A stretch of DNA of 22,175 nt from a virus: positions 1 through 22,175 of IMG/VR virus record IMGVR_UViG_3300021404_000043; one strand, 5' to 3'. The position numbers were made by a program, and so were the translations under genes. Below, in pieces: positions 11,242-22,175 of the stretch; the first letter of the stretch is position 1, and every line of letters begins with the position of its first letter. The notes under the pieces were generated by a model. The model had not been told where the DNA came from. It worked only from the letters and a program-made list of their open reading frames with translations, and searched no databases.

Positions 11242-13317
11242 CTAAGGGACCTGATACCACAACGTGCCGGTCGCACGCCAGCGGTAGAGAGAACAGGTGC
11301 CGAACGCGATGGTATTCGGAACCGCGATATGTGAGGTAGCCTGCACCGCGAAGGTGATGGGATCGGCGGCGGATACGTCGCAGACCTCGACCTGCTGGCC
11401 ATCGACAGCGCCGGGAGCGAGAATCGTGCCGGTGGCGCCGCCTGCAGGAGGCGTTACGTCAATGATGCCTTCATAGGCGGAAGTGCCGAAGACCTGAATG
11501 GTCTGGCCATTCCCGGTGAGCGTTTCCGTGATGCTGACCAGGCGGAACGTGTTCGAAATGCCGAGGATTCCCGATGCAAGGTTGTTACGCAGGGCCACGC
11601 TGGTGCCGGTCAGACTGAGGATCGACGTGCCGCCCGCCGAGAACTGCACGCCGCCGCAGAGCGCAAGCGAGGCCGAGCCCGCCGGACAGGTCAGACCCGC
11701 GCCCTGAATGGCGAAGCTGTTGGATTGATCGGGAGTGCCGCTGACATAAGCCGCGCCCGACTGATTAAAGGCAAGATCGGTAAGGCCCCGGACCTCCGAA
11801 TTGAAGATATTGTCGAACCAGAAACCGCCCTGCGGCGCGAAGGTATTGGTGGCCAGGTAGCTCATCCTCGACTGCAGCACAGCGACCTGCTGCGTCACCG
11901 AATTGGCGAAGGTGACCGATCCATTGACCGGCGCAGTCAGCGCCGAACTGAGCGTAACCGTGGTGCCCGCAATCGTGCCGGTGGTCAAAGCCGCCGTGCC
12001 GTTATTCGGGCGTCCGCCGATCAGCACAAACTGGCCGTTGACGATGCCGGCAGTCGAGCCGGTGATGGTGAGCGTATTGGTCCCCATCGTGCCGGTCGCA
12101 GTGGTCACAATCGGCGTCGAGACATCGCCTGCAAGGGTTTGCCACCACTGGCCGGGATAGGGAATCTCGCCATTCGACTGACCGGCTTTGATGCCGCAGG
12201 TGGCATTGTTCTCGACCTGGGGCTCGAAGGGATAGAGGTCGGTAAGCTGATTATCCAGCCCCATGATGACCATCTGACACACCGCGTAGCCGCCGCCGAC
12301 CGTGCCTTGCCCGCCTTCCGCTGCCAGGGTATGGATCTGGTTGGAAGCCGACTCTTCCACGAGGTTGGTGCAGCCGACGCCCGGCGCGAACAGATGGAAG
12401 TCGCCGCCGATCACAGCGGCGGCATTGTGCCCCAGGAACAGGTTATGGCAGGCGCTGTTATAGACCAGAATGTCCCCGACGTCCTGATCCGCGTCCGCGT
12501 CAATCGACAGGCCGACAGCCCACGGCGTGATGACGGCATCGTTATTGGTGACGTCCACGCCGTTGTGATGAATATTCAGCCGGTGAACGTGATTCTCATG
12601 CGAGCCGGCGAGGGCGACGGAGGGCGGTTCGGCCGCCATGGGATTGTAGTCGTATTCGAGGCCGTTGGCGCGGCAGCCGAAGACTTCGAGATCCTCATGC
12701 GTGAGGTTGATCCCGTACTCCTCGATGCACGGCGTGGTGCCGGTCGCATGGATACCGTTCCCGAAAACGGTCATATGCGAGACGCCGGTCGAGACGATGT
12801 AAGAGTTGGATCCGGTGTTGCCCGTGGCGGAACGATTGACGATCACGCCTCCCGCATAACCGGCGACAGCGCCCTGAAAGACCGTGGAAGACGTGCCGTT
12901 CGACGGCTGGATCATGGTGACGCGCTGACCGCCTCCCGTCCAGGGACAGTAAGGATTCTCGATGATCGGCCCCATAGCGCCATTCGAGAAAGACCCGGCC
13001 TGCACTACGACCGATCCTGAGCCTTGTCGCACACACGCATCATTCATGGAGGCAAAGGCCAGCGAGCCGTCAGCGATGCCGTTCGGAACGGTGACCAGAC
13101 CGTAATTGGCGCTGTTGATTTGAATGTTGGGATTGGCGACAGCGGCGGAAAGCTGCGAGGGCGAGGCGTTGCCGAGGATGTTCGGGCCGGTCCAGATCGG
13201 CAACGTCCCGGCGCGGCCGCCATTTGTGCCCACGATGGGCGTCGTAGGCGGCAAAGGCGTCTGCGCAGTCAGCAGTAAGCCGAAAAGCGGTAATAATATT
13301 ACCCGTTTTTGGGTCAT
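11242..13317 (-). CDS. tail fibre/spike protein with beta-helix and N-terminal signal-like sequence
   Basis: A 691-residue protein. The parts are: residues 1-20, a basic-hydrophobic segment (KRVILLPLFGLLLTAQ) resembling a Sec signal peptide; 26-51, an anchor motif shared with the neighbouring 234-residue fibre (TPIVGTNGG and WTGPNILGNA); about 85-395, right-handed beta-helix-type repeats with NGIHATGTTPC, HHNGVDVTNN and similar rungs; about 408-470, a beta module repeated in other virion proteins; and a C-terminal beta domain (CDVSAADPITFAV, ending LWYQVP). Such proteins bind or degrade surface polysaccharide. There are many cysteines for a fibre. Host receptor and enzyme activity cannot be read from sequence. 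Confidence 0.75.
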   Translation of the reverse strand: MTQKRVILLPLFGLLLTAQTPLPPTTPIVGTNGGRAGTLPIWTGPNILGNASPSQLSAAVANPNIQINSANYGLVTVPNGIADGSLAFASMNDACVRQGSGSVVVQAGSFSNGAMGPIIENPYCPWTGGGQRVTMIQPSNGTSSTVFQGAVAGYAGGVIVNRSATGNTGSNSYIVSTGVSHMTVFGNGIHATGTTPCIEEYGINLTHEDLEVFGCRANGLEYDYNPMAAEPPSVALAGSHENHVHRLNIHHNGVDVTNNDAVITPWAVGLSIDADADQDVGDILVYNSACHNLFLGHNAAAVIGGDFHLFAPGVGCTNLVEESASNQIHTLAAEGGQGTVGGGYAVCQMVIMGLDNQLTDLYPFEPQVENNATCGIKAGQSNGEIPYPGQWWQTLAGDVSTPIVTTATGTMGTNTLTITGSTAGIVNGQFVLIGGRPNNGTAALTTGTIAGTTVTLSSALTAPVNGSVTFANSVTQQVAVLQSRMSYLATNTFAPQGGFWFDNIFNSEVRGLTDLAFNQSGAAYVSGTPDQSNSFAIQGAGLTCPAGSASLALCGGVQFSAGGTSILSLTGTSVALRNNLASGILGISNTFRLVSITETLTGNGQTIQVFGTSAYEGIIDVTPPAGGATGTILAPGAVDGQQVEVCDVSAADPITFAVQATSHIAVPNTIAFGTCSLYRWRATGTLWYQVP

Positions 13318-13320
13318 GCT

Positions 13321-14025
13321 TTAGAAGCCCTCGAGGATGATCACGCCCGACGTGCCGGATCCGGTGATGGTGGCGCCGGAAGTGGTAAGCGATGTAACTG
13401 CGGCAGCGAGCGCCGTCGTCGGCGCGAAGATTCCCGGCAGGAAGCTCCAGACCTGAGAGAAGCTGAAACTGGCCGTGCCAGTCAGATTCTGCAGGACGAT
13501 GATTACCTTTCGGTTCGCTGATCCCGTGAAGGGATTCGTGACAACAATGCTTCCGGACGTCGAACCGTTGATGGTCGATCTGGCGGTCACCGGGCGGAAC
13601 TGGTAAGCGGAGACATAAGAGGGTGAAATCGTGTTGACTCCCGCTGCATTGGTAACGCCGATCGGATTAGCATTGTCAGCTCCAGGTATCAGCGCGCCGC
13701 CGTAGCCATTGCTGATATCCCAGCGGAGAACTCCGTTGAGGTTGAACTGAATGTCACCCGCTGCCTGCATCTGCAATGCGCCTGGAGTGATCCAGTAAGA
13801 CGCGCCGGCCCCTGCCACGATCTGCAGCCATGACGTTGCAGGGGTTGTGGCGCTTATAAAATTGAGCGCCGGAACAGCTCCGACCAGATTCAAGCCGCTG
13901 GCCACAAAGCCAGCATCGGTTGCATTGCCCAGAACGTTTGTGCCGGTCCAGACTGCTGCTGCACCGATCTTGCCGCCGTTGGTTCCCACGACCGGAGTCG
14001 TCGGCGCATTAACCGAAGGTGTCAT
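13321..14025 (-). CDS. short tail fibre protein sharing the anchor motif
   Basis: A 234-residue protein with an AAAGGAG upstream. Residues 10-35 (TPVVGTNGG, WTGTNVLGNA) match the anchor segment of the 691-residue fibre at 17 of 26 positions by eye. The rest is low-complexity, beta-rich and full of G, S, T, A and N (IPGADNANPIGVTNAAGV, RSTINGSTSGSIVVTN), typical of fibre shafts and tips. It probably attaches to the same baseplate position as its neighbour or forms part of the same fibre. It has no signal peptide. Confidence 0.7.
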   Translation of the reverse strand: MTPSVNAPTTPVVGTNGGKIGAAAVWTGTNVLGNATDAGFVASGLNLVGAVPALNFISATTPATSWLQIVAGAGASYWITPGALQMQAAGDIQFNLNGVLRWDISNGYGGALIPGADNANPIGVTNAAGVNTISPSYVSAYQFRPVTARSTINGSTSGSIVVTNPFTGSANRKVIIVLQNLTGTASFSFSQVWSFLPGIFAPTTALAAAVTSLTTSGATITGSGTSGVIILEGF

Positions 14026-14047
14026 TTTTGAGTTAGCTCCTTTGGAT

Positions 14048-14518
14048 TCAGGGAACGATGATGCCGCCGACTACGCTTGCGCCCGCTGCGACGGCCTGCG
14101 CCAGCGTGCCGGTGAAGCCGCTTCGTTTGGTCAGGCTCACGTCGACGCAGGCGAACTGACCCACCTGCACGCCCACTTCGCCCGATTCGACGCCGCCATA
14201 CGACTGCAGGCCGGTGGTCGAAAGAATGGAAGCGGCCGTCAGAAGATTGAAAGTAGGATTGTCTTTGCCGGTGACGATGCCGGCGAGGTTCGTCTCAAGC
14301 GCCGAGAGCGACGCGTCATCGATCGTGTAACCTTTGGCCACCATCACCTGGGCGAGCGCCGTGACGAACGTCGAAAGCTGATAGAACAGCTTGTTCGCCG
14401 TGGGTGAAGGAAATGTGGCATTGGTCGCAATGCCATTGACGCGCAGCGGATCGGTCTGATAGACAGCGTCCGGATCCTGATTCGCTTCAGAAGGGTTCCA
14501 CTGTAAAAACTGCCCCAT
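14048..14518 (-). CDS. tail fibre N-terminal-type protein
   Basis: A 156-residue protein with AAAGGA 9 bases before the ATG. The N-terminal half (QWNPSEANQDPDAVYQTD, then TFPSPTANKLFYQLSTFV and a helix with LAQVMVAKGY) follows a pattern I know from the baseplate-proximal ends of phage tail fibres. The C-terminal half is glycine/valine-rich. It lies directly after the DUF2612 gene, the normal place for fibre genes in Mu-like clusters, so it may be the adaptor joining the baseplate to the two larger fibres. Confidence 0.65.
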   Translation of the reverse strand: MGQFLQWNPSEANQDPDAVYQTDPLRVNGIATNATFPSPTANKLFYQLSTFVTALAQVMVAKGYTIDDASLSALETNLAGIVTGKDNPTFNLLTAASILSTTGLQSYGGVESGEVGVQVGQFACVDVSLTKRSGFTGTLAQAVAAGASVVGGIIVP

Positions 14519-14532
14519 GGTTCAAAGTCCTT

Positions 14533-15402
14533 TCAGAGAAAGTGGCCAAGATCGAAACCGGCGACATAAGGCGTCGATTCATCGAAGCCGAAGACCGGCA
14601 GCGTGGTCGTAGCGAGCGCGTAAGTGTAGAGCACTGCCTGCGGCCGCGGCACAATATAGCCGTTCAGAATCAGGTCGATCAGGATCGAGCTGAAATCGCC
14701 GCCCACGGTGACCGTCGCGGTCATGTTCATGTGATCGAGCAGTGTGATCGTCCCGCCCGGGAATACCGTCTGCCAGAAGGGACCGAGTGAGCCGATCTGA
14801 CCGTCCCAGTGATTCTGGAAGACGCGACACTGGAGCACTTGCCGGTAAGTATTGTCGTCGAGGATCGGGCTGATCGTCGAGACGATCACACAAGTGAAGC
14901 CGGTGCCGTGTCCTCCCGACGTAGGCACGCTGGGCCCGCCGAGCGCCGAATAGCCATTGCCGGGATTGACGATCTGGATCGTGCTCACCGATCCGCCTGA
15001 GCCGATGGCAGTGACCCGCAGCGTGCCATTCTGCGCGCCGGTCTGAATGACCGTAACGATATCCCCGACGATATAGCCTGTCCCGGCGCTGCCTGTGGTA
15101 GTGCCGCCTCCCGGCGCAACCGAATTCAGTCCGGTAGGCTGGAAGCCGACGAGCCGCGTCTGACCGACGATCACGCCGATCACGTCGAGCTGCGCCCCGA
15201 CGGCGGCCGGCAGATAGTAAGCGTTGAGTATCTCGAGGAGCGCCGCCGTCACGTCCTCGAGATACTGCAGGTTGTCATTCAGCCACGTGAGCATGTTGGG
15301 TGCCGGGCCCTGATACTCGGAGGTGACGAGCCTGAGATAGTAACTGTTCGGCAGCGCGAACGGCGCGGGCGGAACCGGATTGGGAACCAGAGGCGAAGAC
15401 AT
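14533..15402 (-). CDS. baseplate/tail protein of the DUF2612 (Mu gp48-like) family with inserted domain
   Basis: A 289-residue protein. DUF2612 features are seen at both ends: NLQYLEDVTAALLEILN and AVGAQLDVIGVIVGQTR (residues about 44-84), then LDDNTYRQVLQCRVF, NHWDGQIGS and the ending LPVFGFDESTPYVAGFDLG. Between residues 96 and 176 lies an extra glycine-rich stretch (GTGYIVGD, NPGNGY, GGHGTGF) that splits the family domain. Family members sit at the baseplate rim and connect to tail fibres. The start is coupled to the baseplate J gene by TGATG. Confidence 0.85.
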   Translation of the reverse strand: MSSPLVPNPVPPAPFALPNSYYLRLVTSEYQGPAPNMLTWLNDNLQYLEDVTAALLEILNAYYLPAAVGAQLDVIGVIVGQTRLVGFQPTGLNSVAPGGGTTTGSAGTGYIVGDIVTVIQTGAQNGTLRVTAIGSGGSVSTIQIVNPGNGYSALGGPSVPTSGGHGTGFTCVIVSTISPILDDNTYRQVLQCRVFQNHWDGQIGSLGPFWQTVFPGGTITLLDHMNMTATVTVGGDFSSILIDLILNGYIVPRPQAVLYTYALATTTLPVFGFDESTPYVAGFDLGHFL

Positions 15403-16823
15403 CAGACGAGGGTGACGATGATGTTCGAGGAATTAGTCTGCGCCGCCTGCGCGAAGCCGATCACGATATCCGACCCGGGCGGATTGACGTTGACGACGCT
15501 GATCGGCACGTTGACGCCGGTCACGACGGGAGCCTGCGAGAGCGTCACGTTCAGACCGGCGATCTGCAGGATCGTCGTATTGGGGAGGATCCCCGCGCCG
15601 ATCACGACCTGGCCGTTGATAAGGCCGATAGTCGAAGGCACGACGATGACGGGATTAAGCGCGTTCAGGTCAGCGGTCGACGGCGTGCCCACGGCGAACG
15701 TTCCGTAACTCAGGCTGCGGATGGCAAAGGTCGGATTCTCCGGATTGGCCCGCGCATCGAGCGCGGCATTGATCAGCTCGCCCGCATAGACGTCCTCGCC
15801 GATACTGAGCCCGCTCAGATAGAGCAGCACGTTCGCCTGAATCGCAGGCGGGACGGCCGAAGTGTAGCCGCTCAACGGATGGATGTTGTAAGAAACGTAG
15901 ACCTGCAGATAGGTCACGCCTATGTAAGAGATCGGCAGGCTGATACCGCCGTTCGAAGGATCGACGATCGAGCGCGTGATCGGAGTGGCCCCGCCGAACG
16001 TGTTGCAGCCGATGCCGCGATGGTCGTAAATCGCCTGACAGACGGCCTCCGGATCGCCGCCTTCGACGACGCAGCAGATCGAATGCGGAGGGATCCCGTT
16101 GACATCGGTCGAGTTCGTCGGATTCTCATAGACCTGAGACCGGGTGACGTTGGGGACGGCGGCGATTGCCGCCGCGGTGCCGGCGAGAGTAGTAAGCGAT
16201 GGCTGAGCTTGTGAGCTCAGCAGGCGGGCGCGGTATTGCGAATCCGCCTCGACCGGCAGGCCCGCCGTATTGGGATACACGCCGCCGACTGCGACGGCGA
16301 CCGGATTAGTGACGCTCGTCCAGCCCGCCGTGGGCGTGGCTATGGTCGTGATCGTATTCGGATCCGCCGTGACGATGCCAAGCAGCTGGCAGGTAGCCGT
16401 GGTCTGCACCGTGCCGCTGCCGGTGATCTGAATCGAGACGGGCAAGGCCCAGAAATTGCCGACCTGGTCTTGTACGAGCCCGTTATTGATGATCGCGCCG
16501 GGTGTGCCGGTGATAGTCAGTGAAACCGTGGACGAAGTCGCCTGTTTACGCGCCGTCCCGATCAGCACGCCGCAATTGTCGAGCGCGACGCCGGTGGCAT
16601 AGAGCGGATTGAGCGAGACGAACACCTGCTGCATGGCCGCGTTCGCATCGGAGTACTGCAGCGCGCGGATCGACGTGTCCTGATAGTCCGCGGTGTCCGG
16701 ACCGACATAGTTCGACTGGCCATAGATCGCCAGAAACTGAGTGAGCAGGTTCGACAGAATTTCCGGCTCGAGCGGAATCTGCAGGCCGGCCGGACCGACA
16801 AAAGGAGGAACGTAAGATCCCAT
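15402..16823 (-). CDS. baseplate J-like protein (Mu gp47 family)
   Basis: A 473-residue protein with the start set at the ATG at 16823, 11 bases after the upstream stop. Residues 1-100 (LTQFLAIYGQ, TSIRALQYSDANAAMQQVFV, ATGVALDNCGVLIGTARK) and 185-310 (GLPVEADSQYRARLLSSQAQ, VYENPTNSTDVNGIPPHSI) are the typical baseplate J core. These proteins form the wedge arms around the central hub in contractile tails. Residues about 392-445 carry the beta module also found in the fibres (LINGQVVIGAGILPNT), placed before the last strands (SSNIIVTLV). Translationally coupled to the DUF2612 gene. Confidence 0.88.
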   Translation of the reverse strand: MGSYVPPFVGPAGLQIPLEPEILSNLLTQFLAIYGQSNYVGPDTADYQDTSIRALQYSDANAAMQQVFVSLNPLYATGVALDNCGVLIGTARKQATSSTVSLTITGTPGAIINNGLVQDQVGNFWALPVSIQITGSGTVQTTATCQLLGIVTADPNTITTIATPTAGWTSVTNPVAVAVGGVYPNTAGLPVEADSQYRARLLSSQAQPSLTTLAGTAAAIAAVPNVTRSQVYENPTNSTDVNGIPPHSICCVVEGGDPEAVCQAIYDHRGIGCNTFGGATPITRSIVDPSNGGISLPISYIGVTYLQVYVSYNIHPLSGYTSAVPPAIQANVLLYLSGLSIGEDVYAGELINAALDARANPENPTFAIRSLSYGTFAVGTPSTADLNALNPVIVVPSTIGLINGQVVIGAGILPNTTILQIAGLNVTLSQAPVVTGVNVPISVVNVNPPGSDIVIGFAQAAQTNSSNIIVTLV

Positions 16824-16834
16824 ATTTCTTGCTT

Positions 16835-17263
16835 TCAGCGGCGGCGCGCGCGGGCAGGTGAGACCGCGAGCGCACTGCTTTGCTGGTTGATGACGGCCTG
16901 ATTGCCCGGAGTGCCGCTGACGCCGATGGTGCCGAAAGCCGTGATCACGCTGCACGAGAACGTGTAATGCCGCGTCGACGGGCCATAGGTGACCACCAGA
17001 TTCTGGACCCCGATCACAAAGGGAACACTCAGAATGCGCTGCCTCAGAATGAGGCCGACGCCATCGGTGGTGTTGGGAACGCCGAGGATCGACTGAAAGA
17101 CCGGCGTGCCGGTGTTGAGCGACTCCCACCACTCGCCCTGCAGCAGCTTGAGCGTGGTCCCGATGATCTGGGCGACCGCTTCGATGTCATAGATGAAGTT
17201 GGCGAGAGACTGGCCCCGGCCGGGATCGCCATTCTGCAACGCGCGTACCTGAATCGAAGGCAT
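16835..17263 (-). CDS. gp25-like baseplate wedge protein
   Basis: A 142-residue protein. LKLLQGEWWESLNTGTPVFQ followed by SILG at residues 38-61 is the signature of the GPW/gp25 family (EW..d...G.P..q.ilg), and LRQRILSVPFVIGVQNL fits the following conserved helix and strand. Family members form the innermost wedge and initiate sheath assembly. The start overlaps the spike gene stop as TGATG, and the next gene is baseplate J, the usual order. The C-terminus is basic (SPARARRR). Confidence 0.8.
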   Translation of the reverse strand: MPSIQVRALQNGDPGRGQSLANFIYDIEAVAQIIGTTLKLLQGEWWESLNTGTPVFQSILGVPNTTDGVGLILRQRILSVPFVIGVQNLVVTYGPSTRHYTFSCSVITAFGTIGVSGTPGNQAVINQQSSALAVSPARARRR

Positions 17264-18051
17264 CAGACCACCGGTCCTGTGGTTGACCCGCCAGACTGCA
17301 CGCCCGAGTGAGCGTGCGGCAGGAACGGTTTGCCGTCGATCGTCGTCTGCCCGCCGGTCGACTTGATCGCTACAGTCTCACCTTCGACGGACAGGTTTCC
17401 GGAAGCTTTGATGTTGATCGCGCCGGACGCGGTGATCGAGACGTCGCCCGAGTTACCGAGATCGATGACAACGCTTTGATCGTCATTGCGCAGCTGCGCC
17501 GAGTCCGTCGACCAGCCGGTGATGCCGGTCGGTGTCGAGCGCAGGCCGAAGATCGCCATCGCGTCCGAGAGTGAGTGGCGCCGGAAGCTGATCGGAGCCT
17601 GTACGCCTCCCGACTGCCACCAGGAATCGATACAGGCGTCAGCAAAGACGAGCAGGCATTCATCGCCCTTCACGATAGGCAGAGTGAGCGACCAGCCGCC
17701 TCCGGAGGGCAGAACGACCGGGATCGATTCGATAATCAGTCCCGGCACCAGCTTTACGACCTTGACATCGATCGGCGGCCCGGCAGGCCCGTTGAGGTTC
17801 ATCTGGACCGGCTCTTTGATCGCGATCTGAACCGAGACTGTCGCCGGCGGCCCGGGCTGAAAGTCTTCGACAATGGCCGGGATCGCCACGCGCAGCGATT
17901 GCATGATCTTCTTCGCGTGCTGATCGAAGCGTGAGATCGAGCGCAGGATGCGCTGGGATATCGGAAGCCCGGGATCCTGATCGGCTTGCGCGGTGACGTC
18001 AACAGTGAAAGTGGGAGTGCCCGAATCGGGAATGACGGGATTGTCGCCCAT
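17263..18051 (-). CDS. baseplate central spike protein (Gp138/gpV-like)
   Basis: A 262-residue protein. Residues about 53-165 match the Gp138 N-terminal OB-fold domain (LRVAIPAIVEDFQPGP, PVVLPSGGGWSLTLPIVKGD, SFRRHSLSDAMAIFGL). From about 198 a regular beta-helix shaft follows (GDVSITASGAINIKASGN). Near the end, FLPHAHSG carries an H-A-H triplet (H246, H248), like the iron-binding H-x-H of phage spike tips. The trimer would form the membrane-piercing needle under the hub encoded just upstream. The short C-terminal tail ends TGPVV. Confidence 0.85.
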   Translation of the reverse strand: MGDNPVIPDSGTPTFTVDVTAQADQDPGLPISQRILRSISRFDQHAKKIMQSLRVAIPAIVEDFQPGPPATVSVQIAIKEPVQMNLNGPAGPPIDVKVVKLVPGLIIESIPVVLPSGGGWSLTLPIVKGDECLLVFADACIDSWWQSGGVQAPISFRRHSLSDAMAIFGLRSTPTGITGWSTDSAQLRNDDQSVVIDLGNSGDVSITASGAINIKASGNLSVEGETVAIKSTGGQTTIDGKPFLPHAHSGVQSGGSTTGPVV

Positions 18052-18054
18052 GAG

Positions 18055-19167
18055 TTAGTTCGCTGCCGGCGGTGCTGATTTATCGTTCTCGACGATTTGC
18101 GCCCAGAAATTGGAAGTGACCGCGTGAATTTCCGTGTACCAGTCCTGGCCGCGCGTGTCCCCGACATAGCTCAGCCCGATGATGAGATAGACACCGGCTC
18201 TGTTCGGGATCGGATTCAATGCCGCGGTCTTCGTGACTCCCTGGCTGATCGGAAAGGGGTTGACCAGAGTCCCCGGAGCCAGCCCGACCGTGTCGCCGAT
18301 GAGCGGCTGCGCGTCCATCTCGACCCGGAAATCGAGTCCATCCTGCGTTTGTTCCGGCGTGCCGATAATAGTCTGCTTGATGACGTTGCTGACAACGCCA
18401 TTCGGCATGGTGGCTTGCACACCGGGCGGACTATAAGCCCAATCGGGAGCGGTGTTGGGATCGAAATTGACCTGGCGCAGGTTCACGCCGCCGCCGCCGC
18501 CGTGCGGCGAGACCCAGAACAGCATGTTATTGTCCCGGGCGATCTCAGCCAGCAAATCGTAAGGACGGCCAAAGTGCACCTGCGCCCGCGGAAACAGGAT
18601 TGAGGAGAGACCGGCCTGATCGATGGATGTCTCGTTCTGCGCCGTAAGACCGCTCTTGTCCATAATTTGCTGCACGGCGTGGAAGTAACTGACGTTCGAG
18701 GGCAGCGAGACATTGGCGTAATTCAGGGCATCGCCGAGGAAGCCGAAGGTGCAGCGCAGCGTCAGCCTCCAGTCGACCACCGATTCGCGCGTCCAGATCG
18801 GCTGCAGCACGTTGCCGACGTAAATGACATTGGCTTCAGGCGAGAACGCGCCTGCCGACGTTTGCCGGTAACCGGCGCTGATCACTACGGTGTCGCCGCG
18901 TTGCACCCTCGTATAGAACTGCCAGAGCTGACTGGTCGGCACAGAACCCGATGCGACCGCGCTGGCCGCGGTCTGAGGATTCAGGTTCCAGATCGTCAGC
19001 TCACCGGCAGAGTAAGCGGCCATCAGCTGGGTCGAGACCTTGAAAGAGGCTCGCAGGCTCTCGCCGGAAGGATTGCTCGACAGGGTCACCGTGCCCGTGC
19101 CCGTGGTCAGCTTGAACTGCCACGCGCGCCCGAAGTACGGCCTGAATTGCTGTTGCTGCGGAGTCAT
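18055..19167 (-). CDS. baseplate hub protein (gp27/gpD/Mu gp44-like)
   Basis: A 370-residue protein. The start is the ATG at 19167, overlapping the upstream stop as ATGA; longer versions of the frame run antisense-like. The N-terminal domain (YFGRAWQFKLTTGTG, SFKVSTQLMAAYSAGELTIW, RGDTVVISAGYR) and later SYFHAVQQIMDKSGL and LLAEIARDNNMLFWVSPHG follow the pattern of the ring-forming hub that joins tail tube to spike. It stands directly before the spike gene, as in Mu-like clusters. A GGGGG run lies near residue 223. Identification rests on order and general pattern rather than a diagnostic motif. Confidence 0.7.
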   Translation of the reverse strand: MTPQQQQFRPYFGRAWQFKLTTGTGTVTLSSNPSGESLRASFKVSTQLMAAYSAGELTIWNLNPQTAASAVASGSVPTSQLWQFYTRVQRGDTVVISAGYRQTSAGAFSPEANVIYVGNVLQPIWTRESVVDWRLTLRCTFGFLGDALNYANVSLPSNVSYFHAVQQIMDKSGLTAQNETSIDQAGLSSILFPRAQVHFGRPYDLLAEIARDNNMLFWVSPHGGGGGVNLRQVNFDPNTAPDWAYSPPGVQATMPNGVVSNVIKQTIIGTPEQTQDGLDFRVEMDAQPLIGDTVGLAPGTLVNPFPISQGVTKTAALNPIPNRAGVYLIIGLSYVGDTRGQDWYTEIHAVTSNFWAQIVENDKSAPPAAN

Positions 19168-22100
19168 TGCTGACCGGGTGAACTGACGCTGGTGACAGGC
19201 AATTGCACCGGCGGCACAGTGGGCGAATTGAAGACTGCGCCGGTGGGATTCTGTGTGAATACAGTGATCGCGCAACCGGCTCCTGCCGCCCCGACGAAAA
19301 GTCCGCTTTTGAAGGTAAGCGTGCAAAGTGAGGTGCCGCTGCCCGTGCTTACGGTGTCGGTAGCGCCGGACGATCCGTCGTTCGACATATAAGTGCCGCC
19401 GCTCAGTACCTGGACGCCCAGAGACGAGATCCCGAACCGGTTCGCCTGCGTGCTGTTGGGAGAACCGAGCGTCATCGTGCCGAAAGCCAGACCACCGGCA
19501 GAGGCCGGAGCCAATGAGCCCTGCGCGATCGTGGTCTGATAGCCCGGCGTGCTGAACCGGATCACCAGGTTGGTCTCGACGCCCGAGTGAATGCCCAGGG
19601 TGTTAAAGCTGCTGCTGTCGAGGCTCAGCGATTCACTGTTGTCAACAGGAGCGCCTGTATTCGGATTGATCCCGAGCGGATTGGTAGGCAACTGCGGCCC
19701 AAAAGCCCACAGGTGCGTGCGTCCATAGAACTGATAGGAGAAATGGGGATTGAACGGCGCGTTGAAATTGATCGAACTCAAAGGCCCATAGGTCATCGGG
19801 TTGACCACGCCTGCGTTTAAAGCCTGGCTCGTATTGTTGAAATTGTTGATGCCGATGACCCTGTTCGGGAAGTCGGCCCCGTTCATCTCGAAGAAAATGC
19901 CGTTCTTGAAATTGGCGATCGTGTTACCCGTAATCGTCGGACCGGAACCGACTACGACGGCATTTGCAATGAATTCAAAGCCGTTATTGTTATCGAACAT
20001 CTGATCGCCCGCGAGGCCGAAGACAAGCGGCGTCAGACTCAGTGCGGCGTAATTATTCACCGACGCGCCCGTCGAGTCGACGAGCGTTATGCTCGATCCC
20101 GGACTCGGCCCGACGAAGGTGCCCGGTGGAATGCCGAAACCGGCCACGAACATTCCGGCCACGATTGTGCCGTTCTGAACGCTGGAAACGGCGACTGAGT
20201 TCGAATTGAGAACTGACAGACCCACCGCTGTAATCGCATTGGTGCGGGTGACGATGTTATTGGTCAGTGTCCAGTTCGGCGCGAAAGAACCCATGTACAC
20301 GCCCACGGGACCGTCCGAATTGACGATGTTGTCGCTGAAATCGCCCCCGGCGCCGGTGAGATCTATCGGAACATAGCCGCCGGTGTAATTGATCGTGTTG
20401 TGGTGAAACCTCATATTGGTCCCCGCGACATACATGCCCGCGCTGGGCACAGCGGGATTCACGGCTATGTTGAACACGTTGTCATCGATGGTCATGTTCG
20501 GGATGCTGATCGAACCGCAGCAGCCGCCGAACGAAATCGCGCCGCCGCCGGTGGTGCTGGCGCTCGCATCGATGTCGATCTGATTATGGTGAACGGTGTA
20601 ATCGAAACAGAACGTGGTGGCGGCGACGGAAGCACTTCCGCCGAGACGGTTGTCGTGCAGGTTCACCTGGGCCGAGTACTCGTCGCACCAGATCGGATCG
20701 TCAATCCAGCCCTGGGTAAAGAATTCCGAGTTTCTGACTTCGAAGTTGACCGTGTTGTAAGCGATCTGGCCGCCCGCCCCTGACTCAGCGCCATGATTCA
20801 CCGGCGAAGTCCATTTCACATGGTCGAAAAGAACATTCCGGTTCGCGCCATCGACCATCCACTGGTTGCCGACCGTATTTTCCATTTCCACGTTACGGAA
20901 GATCACTCCCAGCATCTGAGACAGAACGATCACGCCGCCCCCTTCGGTCGAGACGGTCATCTTGAGATCGTCGATTTCGAAGTTCTGCAGAGCCTGTTTG
21001 GACGCGTTCGTTATGTTGGTATAGCCCTGATCCGACCAGATCACCGCTCCCGGCGGGTAAAACTGCAGCGGCGCGGGCTGACAGACACCGCCCACAAAAT
21101 CGCATACGTCATAGAAATTGATCGGCTGGTTCAGCGTCACGACACTACCGCTGATGGTCATGACGGTCCAGAGCGGAGTCAGAACTCCGTTGTTCCCCGC
21201 GCTCTCCGCATCCAGACCGGAGTTGCCGGTGACCAGCATGCCTGGGACGATGCCCGCTGTGGAACCGGTAATCGTTATCTGGGAAGTGCACGGATTGGTG
21301 CTGCAGATCGCCGTGCCTGTGGTGTTGATGACGCCCGCCCCGTCGCCTACGCGGGCCGGCGGAATGGTATTCGCGGGGGCGCCCACGCCCATGATTCCGC
21401 CTGAACGCCAGAGAGGAGTCGTCGTACCGGAGGTTCCGCTGTTGAGCGCCGTATAGACGTTCCGGCCCACGCGAATGGTCTGACCCGCGGTGTGAGCCGC
21501 GCCAGGGGTCCAGGGAGTTGCGCTGCCACCGGGTATATAAGGCTTTGCCGTATTCCAGTAAGGGTAAAGAATTCCGGCCGTCGCATCGCAACTCTTCACC
21601 CGGTTCAGTTCCCCATTGTTTTCCGATTGTTTGCCGTAGCCGCCACGAATCCAGATCGGGTCACTCGGCTTGAAGTTCGCACAGTCGGAAGGCGTGGCGA
21701 GCTGGATTGACGAAGAATATGCCGGGAGGTTCCCGGTATAAAAATAGACCGGCGTGGTCGCGCTGTCGAAACCAGCGCCGCCGGCGTAGTCCGGAGGGGT
21801 TGAGAGCAGAACGTTGCTACTGAGCGCCGGATTGAGAATCAGATGACTGCCGTTGCCCTGGATCTTCAGACCGTAGGGAGTGAGCGGCAGGATCACTCCG
21901 TTCACCTGCGACTGGATCGAATTGACGTAACACGTGCTGCTGTTTCGCATGCTGACGACGCCGCCCGCGAAGCCATACGTGCCGTTAGCCGATGGCGGCG
22001 GCGGACTGTCTGGTGGTCCCGATGGTTCGCCGGGAGCGCCCACCTGTGCCGCATAGTTAATCGCCCGCTGCAGCGCCGGACCGTCGTCGTGCGAGACCGA

Positions 22101-22175
22101 TGTGCAGGATAAGGTCGGGGCTGAATCGAAGTCCTGCATGTTGAGGGCTTGCGCCAGTTTCTGATTGACGTTGAG
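19164..22175 (-). CDS. giant pectate-lyase-fold tail spike, 5' end outside window
   Basis: At least 991 residues counted from the first ATG at 22139. The frame continues open to the window edge (LNVNQKLAQALNM), and no ribosome-binding site precedes that ATG, so the real start is probably outside. Residues 18-32 (HDDGPALQRAINYAA) are the usual entry to a pectate-lyase-type beta-helix. About 207-248 resemble a carbohydrate-binding module (WTPGAAHTAGQTIRVGRNVY). Two copies of a beta module lie at 286-342 and 644-705, and beta-helix rungs such as HHNQIDIDA and HHNTINYTG in between. The C-terminus has SLCTLTFKSGLFVG. Likely a polysaccharide-binding or -cleaving spike. Its position ahead of the hub gene is unusual. 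Confidence 0.75.
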   Translation of the reverse strand, partial: LNVNQKLAQALNMQDFDSAPTLSCTSVSHDDGPALQRAINYAAQVGAPGEPSGPPDSPPPPSANGTYGFAGGVVSMRNSSTCYVNSIQSQVNGVILPLTPYGLKIQGNGSHLILNPALSSNVLLSTPPDYAGGAGFDSATTPVYFYTGNLPAYSSSIQLATPSDCANFKPSDPIWIRGGYGKQSENNGELNRVKSCDATAGILYPYWNTAKPYIPGGSATPWTPGAAHTAGQTIRVGRNVYTALNSGTSGTTTPLWRSGGIMGVGAPANTIPPARVGDGAGVINTTGTAICSTNPCTSQITITGSTAGIVPGMLVTGNSGLDAESAGNNGVLTPLWTVMTISGSVVTLNQPINFYDVCDFVGGVCQPAPLQFYPPGAVIWSDQGYTNITNASKQALQNFEIDDLKMTVSTEGGGVIVLSQMLGVIFRNVEMENTVGNQWMVDGANRNVLFDHVKWTSPVNHGAESGAGGQIAYNTVNFEVRNSEFFTQGWIDDPIWCDEYSAQVNLHDNRLGGSASVAATTFCFDYTVHHNQIDIDASASTTGGGAISFGGCCGSISIPNMTIDDNVFNIAVNPAVPSAGMYVAGTNMRFHHNTINYTGGYVPIDLTGAGGDFSDNIVNSDGPVGVYMGSFAPNWTLTNNIVTRTNAITAVGLSVLNSNSVAVSSVQNGTIVAGMFVAGFGIPPGTFVGPSPGSSITLVDSTGASVNNYAALSLTPLVFGLAGDQMFDNNNGFEFIANAVVVGSGPTITGNTIANFKNGIFFEMNGADFPNRVIGINNFNNTSQALNAGVVNPMTYGPLSSINFNAPFNPHFSYQFYGRTHLWAFGPQLPTNPLGINPNTGAPVDNSESLSLDSSSFNTLGIHSGVETNLVIRFSTPGYQTTIAQGSLAPASAGGLAFGTMTLGSPNSTQANRFGISSLGVQVLSGGTYMSNDGSSGATDTVSTGSGTSLCTLTFKSGLFVGAAGAGCAITVFTQNPTGAVFNSPTVPPVQLPVTSVSSPGQQ

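Follow-up and report, generated by a model that had tools for sequence, protein, structure and literature searches.

The window analysed here, the whole 22,175-base stretch of the IMG/VR virus record IMGVR_UViG_3300021404_000043, carries phage tail genes on its minus strand, and four stretches within three of the encoded virion proteins are copies of one small domain family of ∼65 amino acids. One copy resides in a tail fibre-like protein (the fibre), one in the Baseplate J (wedge) protein (J), and two in a large spike (copies A and B). We consider it fairly probable that this module is an interchangeable accessory beta domain, inserted at permissive loops of virion proteins, recruited there mostly in separate events and exposed as knobs for weak contacts. 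The original prediction, made from the letters of this DNA, had pointed to these four stretches, and each of them was present where it had been placed, as an in-frame translation of the minus strand; the plus-strand reading was unrelated.

The fibre is an open frame of 691 amino acids (11242–13317, on the minus strand like the other window genes described below) and carries its copy at residues 406–473 (11899–12102). The J protein of ∼473 amino acids (15402–16823) was recognised by Pfam Baseplate_J (E = 4.7e-12) and by phrog_6 (E = 1.7e-41), and its copy occupies residues 380–448 of the protein P0006, in the loop of the C-terminal hairpin (15483–15689). The spike is an open frame truncated by the window end (1003 amino acids, 19164–22175; 1049 amino acids on a near-identical contig). 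In this protein, P0005, copy A spans residues 286–362 (21090–21320), with a long loop separating its two halves, and copy B spans residues 651–720 (20016–20225), with the core GM.V.G.GIP.GT. The residue pattern by which the four stretches had been linked did not fit any of the four copies as printed; a loosened form of it fits the fibre, spike A and J copies, and another form fits spike B. The string ITGSTAGIV, said to be common to two copies, was found in the fibre and spike A, where 22 of the 27 bases are identical.

We aligned the proteins of these copies in pairs and compared each pair with 1000 shuffles. None of the shuffles scored as high as the fibre–spike A pair (z = 7.3) or the fibre–J pair (z = 5.8). 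The pairs of spike A and spike B with J each gave a z of ∼3, with 10 shuffles reaching the observed score, and the fibre–spike B score was reached by 99 shuffles. No direct likeness was observed between spike A and spike B, whose score was reached by 588 of the 1000 shuffles.

To obtain a measure independent of the window, a degenerate DNA pattern of the spike B core was scanned over viral contigs, yielding at least 120 stretches, and a profile was built from 119 non-redundant domains of those loci, leaving out the window itself and any locus identified as belonging to this phage. When open frames were scored with this profile, J reached 28.8 bits (E = 5e-8) and spike B 22.8 bits (E = 4e-6), spike A gave a partial match, and the fibre scored just 6.4 bits, in one of four rounds. 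The excised copies scored 34.3 (J), 30.8 (spike B), 12.8 (spike A) and 11.3 bits (fibre). These four, and three further copies described below, all exceeded every composition-matched shuffle (0/2000 for each of the seven). Among 168 tiles of the window tail proteins lying outside the modules, the best were fibre tiles at 8.7 bits; the best fibre tile among all 205 tiles, residues 451–530, reached 12.2 bits and overlaps the module in part only. This profile, made from other contigs alone, recovered J and spike B clearly and the fibre and spike A weakly.

The family has escaped the standard collections. Neither Pfam nor PHROGs, scanned with the whole proteins and with single copies, held a model that fits it, and the same was true of Pfam and NCBIfam when 81 module sequences were used. 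The best individual matches, to MlaD (two of the 81 members, E = 0.0003, Pfam) and to RuvC (one member, E = 0.0071, NCBIfam), were taken as chance. A spike stretch resembling a carbohydrate-binding module (CBM) by eye matched no CBM model in the Pfam scan. The module is, however, contained in several PHROG families of large virion proteins, and phrog_5838 was matched by 31 of the 81 members at E ≤0.01. A tblastn search of single copies against phage records returned two weak matches each for J and spike B and no match for the fibre copy; phmmer of single copies against the PDB gave nothing convincing (best E = 0.04).

Three further IMG/VR contigs are near-identical to the window (≥99.9% across the shared part). 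One of them (L007), of 85,313 bases, reaches further upstream and encodes proteins of the families Baseplate_J, DUF2612, DUF3383 (sheath) and DUF4054 (connector), together with a Pam3 gp18-like plug, a neck terminator, a Dit-like protein and a major capsid protein. By these protein families, the phage appears to resemble myoviruses such as Pam3 and the Burkholderia phage Magia. Three additional module copies lie on this contig, outside the window, in the plug, the sheath and the DUF4054 connector, the open frames of which scored 40.7, 32.6 and 21.0 bits, respectively, on the independent profile. In total, the window phage carries seven copies across six genes; all of them sit within larger proteins, none of which is a capsid protein by its match.

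The clearest evidence for insertion comes from J. All eight J relatives from cultured phages, 392–400 residues long, are devoid of the module, and the insert point falls between the last strands. Thus, the copy is not an ordinary part of the parent fold in these homologues; had it been one, this would have spoken against the original prediction. The predicted separate module within a core baseplate protein was borne out: the J copy is a loop insert missing from relatives. We also inspected contig relatives of J, taking the best 80 of at least 589 confirmed. Two of these are the window phage, three (L148, L153 and L196) have the module at this loop, two (L159 and L161) have an unrelated Gly-rich module there, and 72 have no insert. 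As two unrelated modules occur at one J loop, it is the loop, rather than the module, that marks the site. In a quick J tree built without the insert columns, six state changes were needed for the six insert-bearing rows, and the window J and L196 fell into a three-row set (Shimodaira–Hasegawa-like approximate likelihood ratio test, SH-aLRT, 100) together with one insert-free row, which by nearest distance is L214. Another of the 80 relatives, L192 (5626–7047), has ∼80 extra residues past the usual C-terminus, which are IPT/TIG-like by eye.

The other conserved proteins gave a similar picture. None of the seven cultured sheath relatives has the module: three are short (366–381 amino acids) and four have other sequence at the site (491–494 amino acids). 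In the sheath of the window phage, as read from the near-identical contig, a Gly-rich module and the present module, called the barrel below for its probable fold, follow each other at that site. Both cultured DUF4054 relatives also lack the module, and 24 named relatives of J, sheath, DUF4054 and DUF2612 scored at most 2.5 bits on the barrel profile and at most 5.1 bits on the Gly-rich one. In the frames of the 80 contig loci, the barrel was found in 5 of 80 J proteins (two being the window phage) and in 1 of 61 plugs (the window phage), and in none of 41 sheath, 6 DUF4054 and 78 DUF2612 proteins. Therefore, J aside, the module sites of the window phage are not common to these relatives. The neck terminators of L167, L182 and L193 carry the module. 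At the level of sequence, the comparison with relatives shows insertion in three proteins, namely J, sheath and DUF4054 connector. In the other two window proteins, fibre and spike, insertion is something that we infer, because no module-free relative was found: searches with the whole fibre returned nothing from phage records and only the near-identical contig among viral contigs, and searches of both collections with the whole spike found none outside the window phage.

The Gly-rich module (GTGY type), which is unrelated to the barrel, also occurs within the window, at 14866–15129 of the DUF2612 protein gene (14533–15402; DUF2612 E = 2.2e-23). This stretch is absent from all seven DUF2612 relatives compared, some of which are incomplete. 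Similar modules are present in the sheath of the near-identical contig (L007 7218–8888) and in J of L159 and L161, and a three-seed profile, with L159 among the seeds, found the module in 10 of 41 sheath relatives. Among the PHROG matches of these Gly-rich modules are families of head decoration, head closure and baseplate wedge proteins.

To trace the origin of the copies, we scored each of the seven against 521 other modules and the six remaining own copies, using raw pair scores. For all seven, the top scorer was a module from outside the phage, the nearest to the J copy being the one in J of L153. The J and sheath copies take second place in each other's rankings, and spike A has the fibre copy in second place and is itself tenth for the fibre; these are the only own pairs found within each other's ten best. 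The best own partners of spike B, the connector and the plug rank 43rd, 76th and 157th of 527, respectively. Median pair scores were 46 for own–own, 51 for own–other and 71 for other–other pairs. At the DNA level, the four stretches of the original prediction are 58–65% identical, compared with codon-shuffle means of 57–59%, and no pair exceeds its shuffle maximum; as the identities lie within these maxima, no recent duplication is seen, in agreement with what had been proposed. The accompanying proposal, that the domain had spread inside one phage, was not supported, as the top-scoring relative of each copy is outside it and own–own scores are not above own–other scores. Being raw scores taken against a far larger outside pool, the pair scores argue against an old spread within one genome rather than excluding it.

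The same DNA pattern found at least 117 stretches in bacterial genomes, and 115 of 117 loci had profile matches, often several per very long open frame. Among eight chosen bacterial carriers that were scanned, three had PATR repeats, one had ESPR, an extended type V signal peptide, one had a phage tail collar domain and three had nothing named. PATR and ESPR being marks of type V secretion, some of the bacterial carriers are, as judged from these domains, type V-secreted surface proteins.

We modelled the fibre copy with AlphaFold2, using 81 rows of the family. The model has six strands, with a predicted local distance difference test score (pLDDT) of 81.6 and a predicted template modelling score (pTM) of 0.71. 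Its sole PDB match at a Foldseek E of ≤0.001 is a tail tube domain of the phage Mystique (9n71). After it come 8eci, the Bridgette decoration protein (E = 0.022, Z = 7.3), and several phage tailspikes, and then E1 enzymes and chains of F1-ATPase, with aligned segments such as residues 177–265 and 11–90. We take the matched PDB regions to be small beta-barrel domains, and because of this the module is probably a six-stranded barrel. Among viral models, cyanophage fibres showed the fold, as did a tail sheath at a weaker E of 0.015. An Ig-like (immunoglobulin-like) fold, one of those that the original prediction had named as support for it, found no backing: no Ig domain is named among the 50 fold-match rows listed, beyond which such a fold may still occur, and the sole Ig-named family among the 25 of 36 families listed in a Pfam scan of the 81 members was TSP_Ig-like, with one member at an E of 0.037, which is not a good match. 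The K1F endosialidase (1v0e) is also in the Foldseek list (E = 0.021), as a lead only, the matched residues not being displayed; the available text of PMC12632334 places a polysialic acid site in the barrel of this enzyme.

The J protein was modelled without free modules, as a joint alignment of J and free modules had misplaced the modules. The model (mean pLDDT 84.9) matches the wedge proteins of Pa193, XM1 and Pam3 (9b45_j at E = 2.4e-27), and strands 367–375 and 460–463 flank the module. From the position of this loop, the module of J would be exposed.

The closest solved relative by sequence is the decoration protein of the Arthrobacter phage Bridgette (PDB 8eci, chain 1), for which our statements rest on the PDB entry and on the accessible part of PMC13033339. 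Its residues 15–74 were matched at E = 3.7e-7 by profile A2, which includes window rows and in which the bias correction was 24 bits; on a profile without window rows it scored 38.3 bits, with 2000 shuffles reaching 8.1 bits at most. The fold match extends over 73 residues at the Z quoted above. The label 'decoration domain' is apt, since the profile matches a solved capsid decoration protein. However, the Bridgette protein is a stand-alone capsid protein, whereas the module is an insert in tail, neck and baseplate proteins. The tail tube domain of the Acinetobacter phage Mystique (9n71, residues 100–184), although the best fold match (E = 9.4e-4, Z = 9.7), was not among the sequence-profile matches even at an E limit of 10, and the resemblance is one of fold only.

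Promiscuous Ig-like phage domains, reportedly described by Fraser et al. in 2006, offer the nearest parallel in behaviour. As far as the accessible text of PMC9022992 and PMC9230969 goes, they too are accessory domains found in unrelated structural proteins and exchanged horizontally. They differ from the module in belonging to another sequence family and, by the model, to another fold. The portion available of PMC9022992 reports that Ig-like accessory domains on tubes are dispensable for tube formation and infection, with some mutants infecting less well, and glycan contact or cementing has been suggested for accessory domains in the parts at hand of both articles. Extra domains of tail sheaths are likewise additions, placed in the variable region of the sheath and distant from the tube, in the sections of PMC9230969 that we could use; they are described there as mostly Ig-like, whereas the module is also found in J, the connector, the plug and the terminator. 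The available excerpt of PMC10684548, a general survey in which, to that extent, the module is unnamed, describes fragments common to otherwise unrelated phage proteins, with an excess of them in proteins of receptor binding and of the baseplate. Our literature search found no prior description of the module, which is not proof of absence.

According to the reading that we prefer, the six-stranded domain would be an interchangeable part, used by phages and by some bacteria whose surface proteins are type V-secreted. In the window phage, it would have been inserted at permissive loops of conserved virion proteins, with the J core retaining its fold around the insert, and the scores suggest that most copies were recruited separately from a large pool by recombination. 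The copies may act as outward-facing knobs, of which the sheath would give each virion a great number. Their added weak contacts would be either with glycans or exopolymer, on the cell and around it, or with neighbouring virion subunits. We lean to exposed knobs since fibres, spikes and surface proteins of bacteria have the module as well; an adhesion role would be plausible. Several observations weigh against this reading. On the profile, the scores of the fibre and spike A are weak and exceed the highest shuffles by small margins (11.3 versus 10.0 and 12.8 versus 12.2 bits, respectively); the pairwise scores, together with the model in the case of the fibre, therefore carry most of their case. 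That model, having been built from the family alignment, does not support the grouping independently, and just two PDB chains, 9n71 and 4ru4, match it at Z ≥8; the Z of 7.3 for 8eci could mean a mere common arrangement of strands. In the J model, the pLDDT is below 50 at residues 381–407, 409–436 and 438–444, i.e. in the module itself. The J tree is also compatible with one origin followed by losses, and a single origin of each module would satisfy its branches.

It is rather unlikely, though the closest solved sequence relative being a capsid decoration protein speaks for it, that the barrels serve as cement, locking adjoining subunits and stabilising the sheath, neck and baseplate in the manner of such proteins. 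A possible role of added sheath domains in cementing the tail or in helping adhesion is also put forward in the available text of a sheath review (PMC9230969). The module is present as well in fibres, in spikes and in surface proteins of bacteria, which offer no such lattice, and most J relatives manage without it. The alternation of two unrelated modules at a single J loop, and the insert-free row in the set of the window J and L196, which implies that inserts come or go among close relatives, could instead mean that short domains recombine into permissive loops and drift as tolerated passengers with no selected role. We regard this as unlikely, as seven diverged copies in six genes still beat the shuffles on the family profile, which would suggest selection for the fold.

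Duplication within one phage, by which one adhesive domain would have spread from gene to gene in the lineage, could account for the mutual ranks of the J–sheath and fibre–spike A pairs and for the shared ITGSTAGIV; it is improbable given the lower own–own median, the distant own partners of spike B, the connector and the plug, and DNA similarity at the shuffle level. Finally, the fibre tiles outside the module come close below the fibre copy, as would be expected if there were no domain at all and the likeness were a compositional echo of beta proteins rich in Gly, Thr and Val. Shuffles of the same composition fall short of the copies, the clean insert boundaries in J contradict such an echo, and the solved decoration protein was matched with none of 2000 shuffles near; we give this explanation very little credence.

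Other features of the region were also noted. The C-terminus of the fibre has a weak Phage_depo_C match (Pfam E = 0.037), which is under the cut-off. The fibre and the adjoining 234-amino-acid protein (13321–14025) have in common a near-N-terminal motif, TTPxVGTNGGxxGxxxxWTGxNxLGNA, possibly a shared attachment region. On the 85,313-base contig, a small frame among structural genes (L007 2596–3156, minus strand) is GIY-YIG homing endonuclease-like by eye, and a frame beside the neck genes (L007 4939–6420) has repeats of the SVGTPQLxxxSVTxxKL type, perhaps of a fibre stalk. A single tRNA-Met gene (L007 3942–4018) lies amid the head-neck genes, and no second tRNA was found across five pieces of this contig.

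The module is a real and common accessory domain that has no Pfam or NCBIfam model of its own. Promiscuous virion domains are already a known kind, which the reviews, in their accessible parts, treat mainly as Ig-like, and this family differs from those. It is conceivable, although somewhat doubtful, that the barrel represents a second, non-Ig class of mobile virion domains, Ig-like in scale, placed at fixed loops that accept alternative modules and forming a glycan-binding currency shared between phage and host. If true, a non-Ig class would span capsid decoration proteins, sheaths, neck, baseplate, fibres and bacterial type V-secreted surface proteins. The inserts in the sheath and the wedge, and the J loop with its two modules, are natural insert sites for probing what such domains do, and a model of the module would let annotation pipelines name a domain that is now hidden in 'hypothetical' and 'virion structural protein' entries.

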